DNA of 34,683 bases from an uncultured Bacilli bacterium (lineage in GTDB: Bacteria; Bacillota_I; Bacilli_A; RF39; UBA660). The translations under genes and the position numbers were made by a program. Below are positions 8,048-16,436 of this stretch, in pieces; positions within the stretch are counted from its first letter, which is position 1; every line of letters begins with the position of its first letter. The notes beneath the pieces were generated by a model that was given only the letters and a program-made list of their open reading frames with translations, was not told where the DNA came from and did not search any database. Where the stretch lies: NCBI GenBank assembly GCA_944350335.1, contig CALVOQ010000003.1:1-34683 (forward strand). Direction: 5' to 3'.

Positions 8048-8123
8048 GCCTGATTAGCTCAGTTGGTAGAGCACACGGCTGTTAACCGTTAGGTCGCAGG
8101 TTCGAGTCCTGCATCAGGCGCCA
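8048..8123 (+). tRNA. tRNA-Asn (anticodon GTT)
   Basis: A 76-base tRNA with encoded CCA. The acceptor stem GCCTGAT pairs perfectly with ATCAGGC. The D arm (GCTC/GAGC with GG in the loop), anticodon loop CTGTTAA and T arm (GCAGG TTCGAGT CCTGC) are all canonical. The outermost pair of the anticodon stem is a C-T mismatch. Confidence 0.97.
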
Positions 8124-8129
8124 TCTAAA

Positions 8130-8159
8130 AAAAATACAATTCATACGAATTGTTTTTTA
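8130..8159 (+). terminator. Bidirectional terminator between tRNA-Asn and the zinc-ribbon gene
   Basis: CAATTC (8137-8142) and GAATTG (8147-8152) enclose a 4-base loop. A T-run follows on the plus strand and an A-run precedes, so it can end the tRNA transcript and the convergent gene, whose stop codon lies in the T-run. Confidence 0.75.
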
Positions 8160-8345
8160 TTTGTTATCAATTGTTTTCCATTCAGTAGTACCACAAGTCT
8201 TACAAATTGATGGTCTTAAAACTTTAACACCTTTAGGTAGTATCTTTTCTTCAAACGTAATACATAAAAGTCCGCTTTGATGATCTATATAAGCAAAACC
8301 TAATTCACTATTATTATCACAGTTTGAACATCCCGGATTTTTCAT
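8157..8345 (-). CDS. Small double-CxxC zinc-ribbon protein
   Basis: A 62-residue protein with CSNC near the N-terminus and CKTC near the C-terminus, the layout of a small zinc ribbon that binds one Zn(II) through four cysteines. The gene has a strong ribosome binding site (AGGAGGT, seven bases before ATG). The body is short and polar, with no membrane segment. Small proteins of this shape are often nucleic-acid-binding or protein-adaptor factors, but no specific family can be named from sequence alone. It is a single-gene unit ending in the shared terminator with tRNA-Asn. Confidence 0.7.
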   Translation of the reverse strand: MKNPGCSNCDNNSELGFAYIDHQSGLLCITFEEKILPKGVKVLRPSICKTCGTTEWKTIDNK

Positions 8346-8442: not shown

Positions 8443-8471
8443 TTTACAAAAACCATAAAATATCATATAAT
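8443..8471 (+). promoter_or_regulatory. Strong sigma-A promoter of a candidate small RNA
   Basis: TTTACA (8443-8448), a 17-base spacer and TATAAT (8466-8471). No protein-coding gene lies downstream on this strand before the terminator at about 8550. Confidence 0.7.
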
Positions 8472-8477
8472 ATATAT

Positions 8478-8552
8478 GTTCTTGAAAAAAGAACAAATAT
8501 TCACAAATGTGTTCAACAACACAAAAACTCTAGTCTAATCTAGAGTTTTATT
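8478..8552 (+). ncRNA. Candidate small RNA with three hairpins
   Basis: A strong promoter ends at 8471 and an intrinsic terminator ends near 8552, leaving a transcript of about 75 bases. It folds into three separate perfect stems: GTTCTT/AAGAAC (8478-8494), TGTGTT/AACACA (8508-8523) and AACTCTAG/CTAGAGTT (8526-8547), the last followed by TTATTTTG. A 20-codon frame (8476-8538) exists, but its ATG would sit at or before the predicted transcript start with no binding site, so a non-coding role is likelier. It matches no RNA family I recognise; it is far too short for 6S, tmRNA or RNase P. It lies downstream of and antisense to the end of the HAAS-protein transcript and shares its terminator. Confidence 0.55.
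8524..8550. terminator. Bidirectional terminator (small RNA and HAAS-protein gene)
   Basis: An 8-bp perfect stem AACTCTAG/CTAGAGTT with a 6-base loop. T-rich stretches follow on both strands, so it can end the plus-strand small RNA and the minus-strand gene that stops at 8556. Confidence 0.75.
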
Positions 8553-8555
8553 TTG

Positions 8556-9590
8556 TTAAATAAAGTTAATTTTATTTTTATCTTTTTCGTTTATATAAAT
8601 AGTGATATCATATCTTTTTAATTCATTCAAATTATAAATGCTTTTTTGTTTAAGTCCATCTATTAAAGTACTTATAACGTCACGACTATTTACATGGAAT
8701 GATACGTAGAGATCATTTCTATTCTTTTTTATTACTAAATCATAATAATTTCTATAATAATTTGCAACTATTTTAATCTCGTTATCCAAACTATCGTCAT
8801 ACTTAATATTATATTTATTATCATAAATATGATTAAACTTAACATTAACCTCATCAGAATCAATGTCAAACATATTAGTTTCACGAGACATTGTATAATA
8901 CTCAGAAAAATCATCTACTTCTTCTAATCTATAAATATCAAACATTAAATATCCAAAGCTACAACCTAGTAAAGAAATTAATATAATATAATAACGGTTA
9001 TACTTTTTAAAATTAAAAACACCAATATTTAATTTATCAACAATACACCTTAAAGAAAAACATACAATAAGTATCAAAACAAAAGAAATTAAAATAAAAC
9101 TATAAAGTTCTATTCCATCTAAAAATGCTACAACATTTATAAAAAATATAATCCCTAGAAAAAATAAAACAATATATAAAATAATACCAACAATAAATAA
9201 AATAATTTTATTGGATTTTGAAAAAACATAAGTGTTCTTACTATAAGAAGTTACCCCATTAGTTTTATTTTTCTGATGAAAAACACTTTTCTCAGCTTTA
9301 CTAGTTTTTTTTCTAACAGTTTTAAACAATTTAAGTTTCTCTTTTAAAACACAAAAAAACTTATTAAAACTATTTTTAATTCTTTTAAAAAAAAGTTTGG
9401 TTTTATAAATTGCCATTTCTTTTTTTACAATAAAGTCCAAATTTAAAGATTTAATTACATCTTTTTCTTTCACTTTAATCATCTTTTTACAAATCATATT
9501 GTCATATTTTTGTAAAATATCTTTTTTACTTCTGTCATCTAAAAATAAAAGTTTCTTATTTAATATTTCCAAAAACTTCTTTTTTCGCAT
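8556..9590 (-). CDS. Membrane protein with N-terminal HAAS-like domain
   Basis: 344 residues. The first 60 resemble the HAAS helical domain (MRKKKFLEILNKKLLFL, then a KKDILQKYDN helix) found at the cytoplasmic end of DUF1700-type membrane proteins. A basic linker follows (about 61-125), then three hydrophobic segments at about 128-155, 161-183 and 200-218. The last 125 residues are polar and predicted extracytoplasmic, with no recognised fold. HAAS proteins are usually paired with a small transcription factor and act as signalling or anti-regulator partners. Here a small XRE regulator is divergently transcribed about 190 bases away, which would fit, though the usual partner is a PadR protein. 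Function is unknown beyond that. Confidence 0.65.
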   Translation of the reverse strand: MRKKKFLEILNKKLLFLDDRSKKDILQKYDNMICKKMIKVKEKDVIKSLNLDFIVKKEMAIYKTKLFFKRIKNSFNKFFCVLKEKLKLFKTVRKKTSKAEKSVFHQKNKTNGVTSYSKNTYVFSKSNKIILFIVGIILYIVLFFLGIIFFINVVAFLDGIELYSFILISFVLILIVCFSLRCIVDKLNIGVFNFKKYNRYYIILISLLGCSFGYLMFDIYRLEEVDDFSEYYTMSRETNMFDIDSDEVNVKFNHIYDNKYNIKYDDSLDNEIKIVANYYRNYYDLVIKKNRNDLYVSFHVNSRDVISTLIDGLKQKSIYNLNELKRYDITIYINEKDKNKINFI

Positions 9591-9783: not shown

Positions 9784-10026
9784 ATGGTATATATTAAAGA
9801 AAAACCTAAAACTAGAAATATATATACAATAGTTGGAAAAAATATTCAAAAGTTCCGAAAGCAAAGAGGTTTAACTGGTGAAGATTTAGCCGAATTATGT
9901 AATTTGTCTTATGGATATATAAAAAACTTAGAGTCATCAAAAGTACAAGCAACTATATCAATAGAAACATTAAAACTTATTGCTGATAAATTAGAAATAA
10001 AACTTGGAGATTTTTTTGAAGAATAA
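9784..10026 (+). CDS. Small XRE-family helix-turn-helix regulator
   Basis: An 80-residue protein that is almost entirely one Cro/C1-type domain: GKNIQKFRKQRGLTGEDLAE, then SYGYIKNLESSK as the recognition region, ending in LKLIADKLEIKLGDFFEE. It has no extra sensor domain. AGGTGA is seven bases before the ATG. It is divergent from the HAAS membrane protein and precedes hsp20, from which it is separated by a dedicated heat-shock promoter. Autoregulation and control of the divergent gene are the natural guess. Confidence 0.85.
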   Translation: MVYIKEKPKTRNIYTIVGKNIQKFRKQRGLTGEDLAELCNLSYGYIKNLESSKVQATISIETLKLIADKLEIKLGDFFEE

Positions 10027-10553: not shown

Positions 10554-11438
10554 ATCTAAATATTTAAGTGCTTTAATCGCTGCAATAGTTCCATCGCTCA
10601 CAGCGGTAGTAACTTGTCTTACTTCCTTATCTCTGCAATCACCTGCGACAAAAATTCCTTCAATATTAGTTAATGTTTCGTTACTAAGATAATAATTATT
10701 GTTATTTGTTTCTATATCACATGTTATATTATTTTCTGGAACCATGCCAATAGCCAAAAATATTCCATCAAGCTTTAATAAAGTTTTTTCATTATTAACC
10801 TTTATTACAACACTTTCCAAAGTTTTATTGCCACAATACTCAGTAATAATGCTATTAAAAAGTACTTGGACGTTACTATTCGTCATCACTTTTTCTTTTA
10901 GACTATTTTCACATTTTAACTTGTTTCCACGACATATTAAGTATACTTTCTGGCACAAATTTGAAAGATATATCGCGTTTATCACTGCAGTATTTCCACC
11001 ACCAACGACAGCAACAGTTTTATTTTTATAAAATGAGCCATCACATGTAGTGCAAAAATGTATGCCAAAACCTATTAAATCATTTTCATTTTTTAAACCT
11101 AATAGCCTATGTTTAACACCCGTTGCAATAATTACAGCTTTAGCACTATAGACCGAATTATTAGTCGTTACTTTTTTTATTTTTCCGTTTTCTATAGAAA
11201 TAACTTCATCAATTTCTATATCAACACCTAATTTTTGAACTTGTTCATAAAATAAATCCGATAATTCACTACCACTTATTTGCTCATATCCAGGGTAGTT
11301 TTCTACCAATGGTGATGATGCAATTTGACCGCCTATACCTTCCTTTTCTAAAATTAATGTCTTAGCACCACCACGCGCTAAATAAATGCCAGCGGTTAAT
11401 CCAGCAGGCCCAGCACCGATAACAATTACATCATACAT
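10548..11438 (-). CDS. trxB: Thioredoxin reductase (NADPH, FAD)
   Basis: A 296-residue flavoprotein disulfide reductase of the low-molecular-weight TrxB type. The FAD-binding GAGPAGLTAG is at the N-terminus, the redox-active CTTC is in the centre (HFCTTCDGSFY), the NADPH-binding GGGNTA follows, and GIFVAGDCRD is near the C-terminus. It reduces thioredoxin-like proteins with NADPH. The start codon overlaps the end of nrdD by eight bases. Because NrdD carries a thioredoxin-like tail, TrxB is a credible electron donor to the reductase itself. This is one of the clearer functional links in the window. Confidence 0.93.
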   Translation of the reverse strand: MYDVIVIGAGPAGLTAGIYLARGGAKTLILEKEGIGGQIASSPLVENYPGYEQISGSELSDLFYEQVQKLGVDIEIDEVISIENGKIKKVTTNNSVYSAKAVIIATGVKHRLLGLKNENDLIGFGIHFCTTCDGSFYKNKTVAVVGGGNTAVINAIYLSNLCQKVYLICRGNKLKCENSLKEKVMTNSNVQVLFNSIITEYCGNKTLESVVIKVNNEKTLLKLDGIFLAIGMVPENNITCDIETNNNNYYLSNETLTNIEGIFVAGDCRDKEVRQVTTAVSDGTIAAIKALKYLDK

Positions 11439-13773
11439 TACAAACCACTTTTTCGTTAATATACTTTTTGATTTCTGATATATTCTTTATTAATTCAACC
11501 TCTCCATTTTGAGCAATTACTAGACTAGGAGCTTGTTTTATTCCATATCTTTTAGTCAAATCGGCCTCTTTTTCAGCATCAATATACGTATAACTAACTT
11601 TAGCCTCGTCCAAAACTTTTTTTGCCATTTTACAATTAGGACAAGTTTTTGTACCAAACAACATAATTCCGTCTTTAGAATTCCCTACTGAATGCGGTTC
11701 TTTGGAGCAATTTAAATCATAAAGTTTGCGCATCTTGTATTCTTTAGCTTTACCATCATTCCAGTTTTTAACAGGCCTATAATATCCTGTAATTCTACTA
11801 TAAACTTCCGTTTCTTCATCACAAACTGGACACTTAAATATTTCACCTGCAAAATATCCATGTTTTTTACAAACTGAATAAGTTGGACTCAAAGTATAGT
11901 AAGGTAACTTATAATTCTCAGCAATTTTTCTAACTAAATTAGCTGCAGATTTCCAATCAGGAAGTCTTTCGCCCAAAAACGCATGGAAAACTGTACCTGA
12001 AGTATATAATGTTTGTAACTCATCTTGAATATCTAAAGCTTCAAAGATATCGCTTGTAAATCCAACTGGAAGATGTGAACTATTAGTATAATATGGTGTT
12101 TCATCATCCGACGCAGTAATTATATTAGGATATAAAGTCTTATCTTTTTTTGCTAAACGATATGATGTACTTTCAGCAGGAGTTGCCTCCAAATTATACA
12201 AGTCACCATATTCTTCTTGATAATCAGATAATTTTTCTCTCATAAAGTTTAATACATCTTTAGTAAACTTCTGAGCTTTTTCATGTGTCAAATCTTCTTT
12301 TATCCATTTTGCATTTAAACAAGCTTCATTCATTCCAACTAATCCAATAGTAGAGAAATGATTGCTAAATGTACCCAAATATCTTTTTGTATATGGATAT
12401 AATCCTTCTTCTAACAATTTAGAAATTACATTTCTTTTGACTTTCAAACTTCTAGCAGAAATATTCATCATTTTTTCTAATCTATCGTAGAAATCTTTTT
12501 CATCTTTTGCAAGATAAGCAATTCTTGGAATATTGATAGTTACAACACCTATTGATCCAGTTGATTCTCCACTTCCAAAATATCCACCAGATTTTTTACG
12601 CAATTCTCTTAAGTCCAATCTCAACCTACAGCACATACTTCTAACATCACTTGGCTCCATATCGCTGTTGATATAATTTGAAAAATAAGGTGTTCCATAT
12701 TTTGCAGTCATTTCAAATAATAATTTGTTGTTTTCTGTTTCGTTCCAATCAAAATTACTAGTTATAGAATATGTAGGGATAGGATATTGGAAACCTCTAC
12801 CATTCGCATCTCCTTCAATCATTATCTCAATAAATGCCTTGTTAACCATATCCATTTCTTTTTGACAATCTTTATATTTAAAATCAACTTCTTTACCACC
12901 AATTATACAATTTAGTTCTGCTAAATCATTTGGTACTACCCAGTCCAAAGTGATATTTGTAAAAGGTGCTTGAGTCCCCCATCTACTAGGAGTATTAACT
13001 CCATAAACAAATGATTGAATACATTGTTTAACTTCGTTTTGAGTTAAATTATCAATTTTAACAAAAGGCGCTAAATAGGTATCAAAAGAAGAAAATGCTT
13101 GAGCGCCAGCCCATTCGTTCTGCATTATACCTAAAAAGTTTACCATTTGATTACATAAAGTACTCAAATGTTTAGCAGGACTAGATGTGATTTTACCAGA
13201 AACACCACCCAAACCTTCTTGAATTAATTGTTTTAAACTCCACCCCGCACAATAACCTGTTAACATTGATAAATCATGTAAATGTATATCACAATTTCTA
13301 TGTGCATCAGCAACGTCTTTATCATAAACTTCACTTAACCAATAATTAGCTGTAATCGCACCAGAATTACTTAGTATTAATCCACCTACAGAATAAGTAA
13401 CTGTTGAATTCTCTTTAACCCTCCAATCAGTAACATTAAGATAACTATTAACTACATCTTTATAATCGAGAATTGTTGACTGCATTGCGCGCTGTTTCTC
13501 GTGAAGTTTACGATACAAAATATATGCTTTCGCAACATCTGCATATCCAGCTTGTGAAAGAACTCTTTCGGCACTATCTTGTATATCTTCAACATCAATA
13601 ATGTTATCCTTAACTTTACTTTCAAAATCAGCAGTAACTTTCAAAGATAAAAAATCTATAACATTTTCATCATAATTCTTATTCTCAGCTTCAAAAGCTT
13701 TCGTAATAGCATCCCCTATTTTTTTAATATCAAATGATACAATTTTACCATCTCTTTTTCTAACTTTATACAT
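11431..13773 (-). CDS. nrdD: Anaerobic ribonucleoside-triphosphate reductase with C-terminal thioredoxin-like domain
   Basis: A 780-residue class III reductase that makes deoxynucleotides through a glycyl radical. Residues 2-92 form an ATP-cone allosteric domain (VRKRDGKIVSF...). The catalytic barrel contains SMCCRLRLDL and SGTVFHAFLGERLPDW. A zinc site (CKKHGYF...CPVC) precedes the radical loop SRITGYYRPVKNWNDGK, in which Gly 663 is the expected radical site. After the usual end comes an extra domain, about residues 703-778, with FGTKTCPNCKMAKKVL (Cys 711 and 714) and a cis-Pro-like QAPSLVI, typical of glutaredoxin/thioredoxin folds. The fusion suggests that reduction uses a dithiol, not formate. 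ATG 13773 follows GGGAGG. It is coupled to trxB and lies 27 bases after nrdG. Confidence 0.95.
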   Translation of the reverse strand: MYKVRKRDGKIVSFDIKKIGDAITKAFEAENKNYDENVIDFLSLKVTADFESKVKDNIIDVEDIQDSAERVLSQAGYADVAKAYILYRKLHEKQRAMQSTILDYKDVVNSYLNVTDWRVKENSTVTYSVGGLILSNSGAITANYWLSEVYDKDVADAHRNCDIHLHDLSMLTGYCAGWSLKQLIQEGLGGVSGKITSSPAKHLSTLCNQMVNFLGIMQNEWAGAQAFSSFDTYLAPFVKIDNLTQNEVKQCIQSFVYGVNTPSRWGTQAPFTNITLDWVVPNDLAELNCIIGGKEVDFKYKDCQKEMDMVNKAFIEIMIEGDANGRGFQYPIPTYSITSNFDWNETENNKLLFEMTAKYGTPYFSNYINSDMEPSDVRSMCCRLRLDLRELRKKSGGYFGSGESTGSIGVVTINIPRIAYLAKDEKDFYDRLEKMMNISARSLKVKRNVISKLLEEGLYPYTKRYLGTFSNHFSTIGLVGMNEACLNAKWIKEDLTHEKAQKFTKDVLNFMREKLSDYQEEYGDLYNLEATPAESTSYRLAKKDKTLYPNIITASDDETPYYTNSSHLPVGFTSDIFEALDIQDELQTLYTSGTVFHAFLGERLPDWKSAANLVRKIAENYKLPYYTLSPTYSVCKKHGYFAGEIFKCPVCDEETEVYSRITGYYRPVKNWNDGKAKEYKMRKLYDLNCSKEPHSVGNSKDGIMLFGTKTCPNCKMAKKVLDEAKVSYTYIDAEKEADLTKRYGIKQAPSLVIAQNGEVELIKNISEIKKYINEKVVCNV

Positions 13774-13800: not shown

Positions 13801-14484
13801 CTATATTCCTCTAACGATAACATTAGGAAATTTTTTATTTAATTTATTTACTAACTCAATAAGTTCAGATTTATCAAAACCATTTAACTTTTGATTCAAA
13901 ACATTAGAACTATTTTCAAAGTTCTGTATATAATATTTTGCATTTTTACCTAAATACTCACAAATGTTATTCAAAATCTTATAATTATGATATTCTTTAA
14001 CTATTGTTGTTCTAAACTCATAATCAATTCCAGATTTTTTTATATAGTCCACGCTTTCAATTATCTTATTATAATCGATATCAATTCCACTGACTAAGGA
14101 AAAATTTACCTTATCAGCTTTTATATCCATAGCAATATAATCAATCAATTTTTCATCAATAAGTTTTTTAAGAACATTTGGATTGTAACCATTCGTATCC
14201 AATTTAACCTTTAAGCCTAAGTCTTTTATACTTTTTATAAAAAACATTATATCTTTTTGCATCGTAGGCTCTCCACCAGTAATTACAACACCATCTAACA
14301 TTGACTTTCTCTTTTTCAAATAATCCATAACATCAGTTTGAGATATGTTTCCTTTTCCAAAAGTGATTAAATCACTATTATGACAAAATGGACATTTAAA
14401 ATTACAACCTTTAGTAAACACAATACATGCAATATGACCAGGATAATCAGTTAAAGTCAATTTTTCAAAACCACTAATTTCCAT
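13801..14484 (-). CDS. nrdG: Anaerobic reductase activating protein (radical SAM)
   Basis: A radical SAM enzyme of 227 residues. The cluster-binding motif is CNFKCPFC (CX3CX2C), followed by VVITGGEPTMQ, the SAM-contacting GGE motif. The opening SGFEKLTLTDYPG is typical of NrdG-like and PFL-activase-like proteins. It generates the glycyl radical on NrdD. ATG 14484 overlaps the TGA of the upstream gene as TGATG, so translation is coupled; a GTG one codon earlier is less likely. Located between an NrdD-like pseudoenzyme and NrdD, it clearly belongs to the anaerobic nucleotide reduction operon. Confidence 0.92.
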   Translation of the reverse strand: MEISGFEKLTLTDYPGHIACIVFTKGCNFKCPFCHNSDLITFGKGNISQTDVMDYLKKRKSMLDGVVITGGEPTMQKDIMFFIKSIKDLGLKVKLDTNGYNPNVLKKLIDEKLIDYIAMDIKADKVNFSLVSGIDIDYNKIIESVDYIKKSGIDYEFRTTIVKEYHNYKILNNICEYLGKNAKYYIQNFENSSNVLNQKLNGFDKSELIELVNKLNKKFPNVIVRGI

Positions 14485-16436
14485 CACGTCACATCCTTAG
14501 TAATAAACTTTAAAAAACCTACATCACTATCAAATATATTAAAAATAAGTTCTTCTAATTTATTAACTGTCATATTTTTATTTACTTTTATTTCTAAAAT
14601 ACTACCACCACTTACTAATTTTTGAATTTCACCAATTAAACTATAATTGTTTTTAATTTCTGGCAAGTTACTGATTAAATCGTACATACATTTATTTTTA
14701 AGTTCTTTTCTATTTCCATAAATTGACTTATCCAAAGCAATTAATTCTTTAGAAGCCGCACTTTTATAAGGTTCATATAAATAAAAGTTTAATTTAGTTT
14801 CTTCTCTAAAGATCATACATTTTTTATTTAAAAACTTAAGTATACCTTTTAATAATTCATATTGCTTAGTAGAGTCTTTTTCTAATAACTGAACACACTC
14901 ATTTAAGCCAATCAGTCCTATTAATAAATTACCATTTTTAATTATCTTTCTTATTTTTTGTCCTCTTTCTAATCTATCATCACTCATAATATTGTTATTA
15001 AAAACAAATTCATAATTGTCTTTATTCTTATTTCCTATTGTTTCAAAACTTAATAGCAACTCACTTTTAACAATTTCAACAATAAAATCTAATTTATTAT
15101 AAAAATTTTTAATATTATCATTTTCAAACTCTAAACCAAGTCTGGCAAAATTAATATTTGTTAAAGCAACAACCATTCTACCTTCAGAACTACTAACATC
15201 TTCATTATTATTTTCGTAAATACGTACTCCATCTGAGAAATATTCAACCTCATTATTTCCTTTATTATATGAAGTTTTATTATTAGATACCATAACATTT
15301 TTATTATTAATAATTAACGAACATATTTCGCTCATATAACTCGCATTATCTTCATTTAGTTTAAAAATAACTATAACATTATTTAATCTACCTAACTCAT
15401 TTAATACTTCTAGCAATGTCTTATTAATACAATTTCCAATAGAACTATCATTTGTACCAAAACTAAACGAATAAGACTTATTAAACATTGAAAGATCTTC
15501 AAACATTTTCTTTAAATTATAATATAAGTCAGATTTACATTTTTCATAGGCATCTTTATAGGCACTATCAAAAATATTTTCAACTTGTTCAGACAACATA
15601 TAAATTGAATAATTTGACATATCAAACGTTATATCCTTTTCTTTGTTAATTAATTCAATAATTTTCTTCAAATTAATATATTTATCAAAACCTGAGACTT
15701 TTAAATAATTAGATAAATATTCAATATATAACAATTTAAACTTTTTAATAGAATAATTTTCTAATAATTTATCTAACGACGGAACATTGATTTCCCCACT
15801 TATTTCAGTAGATAAATCCTCTAACTTATAAACAACGTTTTCAAAACTATTATTCTCTAAAAAATTATTTAAATTTATATGAGTATTTGATAACCTACCT
15901 AAAGAAAAATCACACATATCGTTAATATAAATATTACCTTCGTCATGCTCCCTTAAAAACTTATTATCTATTATATATGACTTTGTAATTTCATTGACTA
16001 CCATCAAGCCATAATTCTTAACGATATCCTTAATTTTACATGAATTATCATTAAGCAAAATATTATCATCATTTATTTTTTCTATGGCCTTTAAGAACTT
16101 ATGTTGTTGTTTCTGAGTAAAAATTTTTCTACTAGCAGCTCTCTTTTTTCTATATTCACTAAATGCATTGTACACTTCTTTAAAGTTACTTTCTTCCAAT
16201 TTTGATTCAATTATATCCTGTATGTCTTCAACATTTATTGTTTTTCTGTTAGCATAATTTATTTCAATATACTTTAGTACGTTTTCATATATTTTATTAA
16301 TCTTTGTTTCTTCACTATTATCATAAACACTATCAAAGGCATTCTTAATTGCAACAGCAATCTTATAACTATTAAAGTTTACTCTTTGACCACTTCTTTT
16401 TACAACAACAAGTTCATCAAAAACATCTTTTTGCAA
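14484..16436 (-). CDS. ATP-cone NrdD-like protein lacking the glycyl radical domain
   Basis: A 650-residue paralogue of NrdD. Residues about 8-98 form an ATP-cone (VVVKRSGQRVNF... TINVEDIQDIIESKL... VYNAFSEYRKKR). The body keeps recognisable barrel landmarks in the right order: EGNIYINDMCDFSLG (compare CDIHLHDLSMLTG in NrdD), EGRMVVALTNINFARLGLE (compare TGSIGVVTINIPRIAYLA), LLIGLIGLNECVQLL (compare STIGLVGMNEACLNA) and VSGGSILEI (compare TSGTVFHAF). It ends soon after that point. The CCRL cysteines, the zinc site and the GY radical loop are absent, so it should not be catalytic. The start is TTG 16436, supported by AGGAGGTGAT three bases upstream. It heads the operon and is translationally coupled to nrdG. 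An allosteric or chaperone-like subunit of the reductase is my inference. Confidence 0.8.
   Translation of the reverse strand: MQKDVFDELVVVKRSGQRVNFNSYKIAVAIKNAFDSVYDNSEETKINKIYENVLKYIEINYANRKTINVEDIQDIIESKLEESNFKEVYNAFSEYRKKRAASRKIFTQKQQHKFLKAIEKINDDNILLNDNSCKIKDIVKNYGLMVVNEITKSYIIDNKFLREHDEGNIYINDMCDFSLGRLSNTHINLNNFLENNSFENVVYKLEDLSTEISGEINVPSLDKLLENYSIKKFKLLYIEYLSNYLKVSGFDKYINLKKIIELINKEKDITFDMSNYSIYMLSEQVENIFDSAYKDAYEKCKSDLYYNLKKMFEDLSMFNKSYSFSFGTNDSSIGNCINKTLLEVLNELGRLNNVIVIFKLNEDNASYMSEICSLIINNKNVMVSNNKTSYNKGNNEVEYFSDGVRIYENNNEDVSSSEGRMVVALTNINFARLGLEFENDNIKNFYNKLDFIVEIVKSELLLSFETIGNKNKDNYEFVFNNNIMSDDRLERGQKIRKIIKNGNLLIGLIGLNECVQLLEKDSTKQYELLKGILKFLNKKCMIFREETKLNFYLYEPYKSAASKELIALDKSIYGNRKELKNKCMYDLISNLPEIKNNYSLIGEIQKLVSGGSILEIKVNKNMTVNKLEELIFNIFDSDVGFLKFITKDVT

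Follow-up and report, generated by a model that had tools for sequence, protein, structure and literature searches.

What product is specified by the compact intergenic element at positions 8443-8552 of the window, and on what might it act? The window is the whole 34,683-nucleotide stretch analysed here, contig CALVOQ010000003.1 of an uncultured Bacilli bacterium with an 818 kb genome assembly of 66 contigs. A preliminary description, made from the sequence alone, had proposed that a near-consensus promoter is followed by a small RNA of three perfect hairpins, the last an intrinsic terminator, with no gene downstream on the same strand, a 20-codon frame lacking a binding site, and no resemblance to a known RNA class. 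The features of the locus, together with neighbouring ones referred to below, are as follows.

8048..8123 (+), tRNA-Asn (GTT), the conserved upstream neighbour of the sRNA gene
8443..8471 (+), promoter of the sRNA: TTTACA (8443-8448), 17-base spacer, TATAAT (8466-8471)
8477..8552 (+), predicted sRNA transcript of about 75 bases, its start inferred from the -10 box and its end from the terminator
8477..8495 (+), hairpin 1, 7 pairs with a loop of 5, showing paired changes among relatives
8495..8516 (+), antisense core AAAUAUUCACAAAUGUGUUCAA, predicted to pair with the mRNAs of comK, a peptidase-C39 ABC exporter and a gene for a ~370-aa surface protein; its linker part is predicted to be unpaired in the sRNA
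8508..8523 (+), hairpin 2, whose loop begins UUCAA in all homologues, with a G-C to A-U compensatory change in two relatives (genus g94)
8524..8555 (+), intrinsic terminator (stem 8524-8549), 10 pairs plus a U-rich tail, its sequence differing completely between genera
8556..9590 (-), convergent membrane-protein gene, termed 'HAAS' in the preliminary description but without a Pfam match above cut-off
13952..13973 (-), possible extra pairing site within the nrdG coding sequence, of low confidence

Analysis of the sequence confirmed that the promoter, the three hairpins and the terminator are present as described. Promoter-like matches as such were not rarer than expected by chance in this AT-rich region (28 found, 30.6 expected), but this particular one is kept in 12 of 12 homologues as TTTAC[AT], 17 bases and a hexamer with 5 or 6 of 6 matches to TATAAT. 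The minimum folding energy was -22.6 kcal/mol (z -5.56), and none of 200 shuffled sequences folded as well. Between 6500 and 10500, three terminator-like sites were found against 0.8 expected, two of the three being this same hairpin read on either strand. The statement that no gene lies downstream on this strand is right locally, as the next gene is the convergent one at 8556-9590, although a plus-strand HTH gene starts at 9784.

To establish whether the element is conserved, BLAST was first used and detected it in four of five other genomes of the genus (g1). The fifth, G005, is 66% complete, and in L023, which we take to be a contig of this genome, the sequence departs from that of the window just upstream of where the sRNA promoter would begin and runs into what reads like an insertion-sequence stretch before the contig ends. 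A covariance model built from five sequences and a second one, built from twelve, identified homologues (L051-L062) in 12 of 386 family genomes, representing 4 of 150 genera (g1, g94, g97 and g164), at E up to 0.005, the weakest of the 12 having an E of 1e-9; these scans used strict filters that can lose diverged copies. The weak hits of the first model that were inspected (8 loci) lacked the core, and none of the weak ones returned with the second model at E up to 0.005. When the second model was run without filters on 24 sRNA-less loci around the AAA gene, only E values of 0.5-0.8 were obtained, but this is a weak test of synteny as only 2 of the 24 have tRNA-Asn beside that gene. ARAGORN found tRNA-Asn beside the sRNA gene in 10 of the 12 loci and Rfam a truncated tRNA at the contig edge in an eleventh (L059), whereas none was found in L056. 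In the nine loci whose downstream frames were listed a convergent gene follows, namely rubrerythrin in g94, g97 and g164 (by Pfam on two of the seven, the rest by sequence likeness) and the window's membrane protein in L051 and L054 of g1. The zinc-ribbon gene located between tRNA-Asn and the sRNA in the window (8157-8345) is absent from that place in the aligned congeners.

The 20-codon frame exists as previously described, raising the possibility of a small mRNA. However, only the window and genome G002 have an ATG in that place, the frame in G002 having a different end, and it is lost in the other 10 of 12 homologues, because hairpin-1 loops differ by one base. A peptide-coding role was thus rejected, and a riboswitch or cis-acting leader was likewise rejected since no gene follows the terminator closely on the same strand; both readings are considered very unlikely. 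A search against Rfam 15 returned only the tRNA for the window, at E up to 10 the sRNA region reached at best 22.9 bits against a cut-off of 81.9, and in five homologous loci only the tRNA passed, in agreement with the earlier view that no known class is matched. As regards a CRISPR or TnpB guide RNA, the core is internal, and no nuclease gene was recognised in the reading frames listed next to the locus.

In contrast to the peptide frame, the stems are conserved. In an alignment of the homologues, hairpins 1 and 2 and the terminator stem were paired in 98.9% of cells against 82.6% after shuffling, and 14 of 23 pairs showed changes on both sides, although the alignment was fitted to the structure, which flatters it. 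A structure-blind alignment returned hairpin 1 with three double-changed pairs, but not hairpins 2 and 3, and in addition a different, nearly unvarying pairing; hairpin 2 has a single compensatory change. Each of the 12 sequences folded alone gave three hairpins. Absence of stem conservation with compensatory changes had been named beforehand as grounds for refutation, and it was not observed. The interpretation of the element as a compact, free-standing sRNA gene is therefore supported by the comparative evidence of conserved promoter, terminator, locus and structure without a conserved frame. What the preliminary description missed is that the most constrained part is the open linker plus the 5' half of hairpin 2 (8495-8516), which is nearly identical in all 12 homologues although the terminator stem has been rewritten between genera, and which has complementary partners in mRNAs elsewhere in the genome.

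These partners were encountered when a pattern of the core was searched, with up to two mismatches, in 295 genomes of the phylum. Unexpectedly, three more places were found in the window's own genome and none there for the reversed control pattern, one of the three being antisense to comK (Pfam ComK, E 7.9e-41), the gene for the master switch of DNA uptake. Matches in other genomes of the class initially looked promising, but six of them (loci L129-L134, by sequence context; L132 read as reading frames) are one sense-strand coding sequence of a regulator-like gene, recognised as RpiR, and are unrelated. The exact core occurred in no viral contigs, which speaks against a viral origin. ComK is present in all 13 genomes searched, and in g1, g164 and g97 the core pairs with the codons of I-E-H/R-S-C-E-Y-F in comK. 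In genome G000, comK (L139/L142) lies between what reads like dnaN and recF in the replication-gene cluster.

In order to define the target sites more precisely, 26 genomes were scanned with G-U pairs allowed and up to two mismatches. The 13 genomes of the sRNA clade, with G005 counted in although its sRNA was not found, gave 60 matches, of which 12 were the sRNA itself, 11 comK and 37 others, against 6 for the reversed control; the 13 sRNA-less family genomes gave 2 matches against 7 for the control. The DNA around all 37 plus the 2 was read. Of the 37, 29 are on the mRNA strand of a reading frame (2 of them just upstream of clpP), 2 on the sense strand and 6 outside frames, so that 40 of the 48 sites other than the sRNA lie on the mRNA strand of a gene. 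Of the six outside frames, one, at a contig end, reads like the ABC-2 permease described below and one is a second exact copy of the core in genome G318 (L288, around 728-749 of contig C56), which has the 3' arm of hairpin 1 but no terminator and lies just upstream of a start codon and after what reads like an HTH gene; it may be a captured fragment or decoy, perhaps on a mobile element. Recurrent among the sites were a peptidase-C39 ABC exporter (11 genomes; Pfam C39, ABC membrane and ABC ATPase on two of them), the gene for the ~370-aa protein, and an ABC-2 permease (3 genomes; Pfam ABC2_membrane_2, below the cut-off in one). Single genomes had sites in a ComEA-like helix-hairpin-helix protein, a thioester/SpaA surface protein, a sortase and a few others. 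The ~370-aa family (L141, L211, L213, L228, L234 and L240) looks secreted, with a C-terminal membrane segment seen by eye in L141, had no Pfam or NCBIfam match in three members tested, and was found in none of 31 sRNA-less genomes.

Comparison with sRNA-less relatives supported these assignments. All 11 genomes of g1, g164 and g97 have the exporter site, with 18-20 Watson-Crick plus 1-3 G-U pairs and duplex energies of -17.2 to -25.7 kcal/mol, whereas 30 of 30 sRNA-less exporters had only 7-15 Watson-Crick pairs at the aligned place and -2.6 to -10.9 kcal/mol. For comK, 11 of 13 clade genomes (g1, g164 and g97) gave -21.9 to -25.3, against -3.6 to -20.9 for 21 scorable sRNA-less comKs, 19 of them weaker than -13 and two being outliers, G017 (-16.6) and G032 (-20.9); three further sRNA-less loci gave no motif and were dropped. 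The two g94 genomes (L059 and L062) keep the sRNA, but their comK pairs poorly (-11.1 and -9.9), and they may show the state before or after comK targeting. The ~370-aa gene has the site in 11 of 11 genomes of g1, g164 and g97; 10 of 12 loci could be scored, all in these genera (-15.6 to -23.6), the two without score being G005, whose site was read directly, and the weak g94 homologue. Over the three main target genes, 19-22 of 22 positions are paired, G-U included. Orthologous sites are, however, not independent events, and by gene family there are three firm ones.

Interaction energies including opening costs were then calculated with the full sRNA and 82-base target segments in the genomes G000, G171 and G104, respectively, giving -16.2, -22.1 and -13.8 for comK, -18.4, -19.5 and -17.7 for the exporter, and -12.8, -17.7 and -15.3 for the ~370-aa gene, with null means of -2.9 to -3.6. 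The three main targets reached z -4.6 to -9.8, and at most 1 of 250 random coding segments was as low, this being the case in G000 for comK and for the ~370-aa site. The ABC-2 permease reached -9.5 (1 of 250 as low). The site upstream of clpP (G000 and G005) was not supported, with only -4.5 in G000 and 51 of 250 random segments as low. In the window itself, the predicted unpaired probability of 8496-8507 is 0.79-1.0, and the nrdG coding sequence offers 16 consecutive pairs with the linker, but this strong match is not kept in three congeners (L280-L282). Next to nrdG, a 650-aa protein (14484-16436, minus strand) begins, by eye, like an ATP-cone and may be a degenerate paralogue of the anaerobic ribonucleotide reductase at 11431-13773.

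Could the complementarity merely reflect protein-coding constraint, the ComK motif I-E-H-S-C-E-Y-F and similar peptides happening to match an unrelated sRNA? Many sRNA-less comKs already match 15-17 of 22 positions, and G032 matches 20 of 22 with one G-U, indicating that the protein motif alone can come close. However, the exporter site (L-N-I-F-V-N-I-F) is in reading frame 0, while the ~370-aa site and likewise the comK site (I/V-E-x-x-C-E-Y-F) are in frame 1, so peptide likeness does not explain them; the exporter match is absent from all 30 sRNA-less exporters and the reversed control pattern is rare. Coincidence is thus regarded as unlikely. In the 11 exporters, positions facing A or C of the sRNA are fixed except one (2 of 11 differ), while positions facing U or G vary, mostly to G-U pairs, and the Val codon in the site is always GTG, which is 10% of Val codons elsewhere in these genes. 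In six g1 comKs, seven of eight site codons are identical against 53% of comparable codons overall, and adding g164 gives 4 of 7 against 28%. Furthermore, the g164 sRNA has CGC for CAC, and TGT became TGC in both its comK and its ~370-aa site, whereas its exporter keeps the U of TGT as a G-U pair.

The same data bear on two other readings. A DNA-level motif, such as a protein-binding or DNA-uptake signal that the sRNA locus also carries, could be invoked since a motif of about 22 bases recurs in genomes that carry comK (13 of 13), but with only 1-10 copies per genome, nearly all on the mRNA strand of a few orthologous genes, and with deviations in the exporter sites falling mostly where G-U pairs keep RNA pairing, it appears very improbable. 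A structural or protein-binding RNA, for example a sponge for a regulator, whose linker is conserved for protein binding would account for a linker more invariant than pairing alone would need and for its retention in g94 despite weak comK pairing. It does not explain 48 against 6 sites, the strand bias, the different frames, the codon constraint or the CGC/TGC covariation, and is likewise considered unlikely.

The best explanation is a trans-encoded antisense sRNA controlling competence, peptide export and a surface protein, to which we assign a probability of about 0.8. The analysis itself establishes the predicted structure, the accessibility of the linker as calculated, the complementarity and the covariation, whereas transcription, duplex formation in the cell, any change in target expression and its direction, and the fate of the mRNA are inferred, there being no expression data. 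In this view hairpin 1 caps the 5' end, an open linker of about 12 bases makes first contact, hairpin 2 opens to form a ~20-bp duplex, and the third hairpin terminates. As the sites lie at about nt 116-137 of comK, begin at about nt 130-180 of the ~370-aa gene and lie at about nt 817-838 of the exporter where its start is clear (roughly 115 to 860 bases inside the genes overall), blocking of the ribosome-binding site is unlikely. The likeliest outcome would be repression, through RNase-mediated decay of the duplexed mRNA or a block to ribosomes, keeping competence and peptide export off until the sRNA falls. That the sRNA gene is real is nearly certain and pairing with these mRNAs highly probable, but repression by decay or elongation block is only somewhat more likely than not. 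Activation or protection of the targets, for example by masking an RNase site, is compatible with sites far from ribosome-binding sites but is thought unlikely, as the pairings inside or early in coding sequences described in the text consulted (RyhB, GcvB, OmrA/B and SR1-ahrC; PMC7237705) lead to decay or translation inhibition. Participation of a dedicated nuclease or chaperone is a tentative possibility.

Among described systems, the CiaR-controlled csRNAs of Streptococcus pneumoniae also control competence by pairing with a competence-gene mRNA in a Gram-positive bacterium, but exist as five related copies and target the pheromone gene comC, not comK (PMC4507080); sequence relation was compared only through Rfam. 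RocR of Legionella pneumophila, likewise a trans-acting sRNA pairing with mRNAs of the DNA-uptake system, acts in the 5' untranslated region with the FinO-domain chaperone RocC (PMC7973641), whereas the sites here are inside coding sequences and no chaperone is known. SR1-ahrC of Bacillus subtilis and the coding-sequence targets of RyhB and GcvB share pairing downstream of the start codon or in the coding region, but SR1 is aided by CsrA and changes the ribosome-binding site (PMC7237705), while here one 22-base core would serve several genes at very different distances from the start. Kre/KrrA, the ComK repressor of bacilli, also exerts post-transcriptional control of comK but is an RNA-binding protein (PMC8938561). 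Non-coding RNAs changing in competent B. subtilis are reported without mention of comK pairing in the text consulted (PMC7317962), and Hfq affects the ComK regulon (PMC4059632).

Control of ComK is known through transcription, proteolysis and probably the RNA-binding protein Kre (PMC8938561), and our literature searches, which covered open-licence papers only, listed no report that we recognised of an sRNA pairing with comK. The pairing rule is explicit enough to be tested by compensatory mutation, and the analysis shows that an sRNA and its predicted targets can be read from metagenome-assembled genomes alone when co-variation between guide and site is used. If the reading is right, these uncultured gut bacilli with genomes of 0.8-1.5 Mb regulate DNA uptake, peptide export and a lineage-specific surface protein with one RNA.
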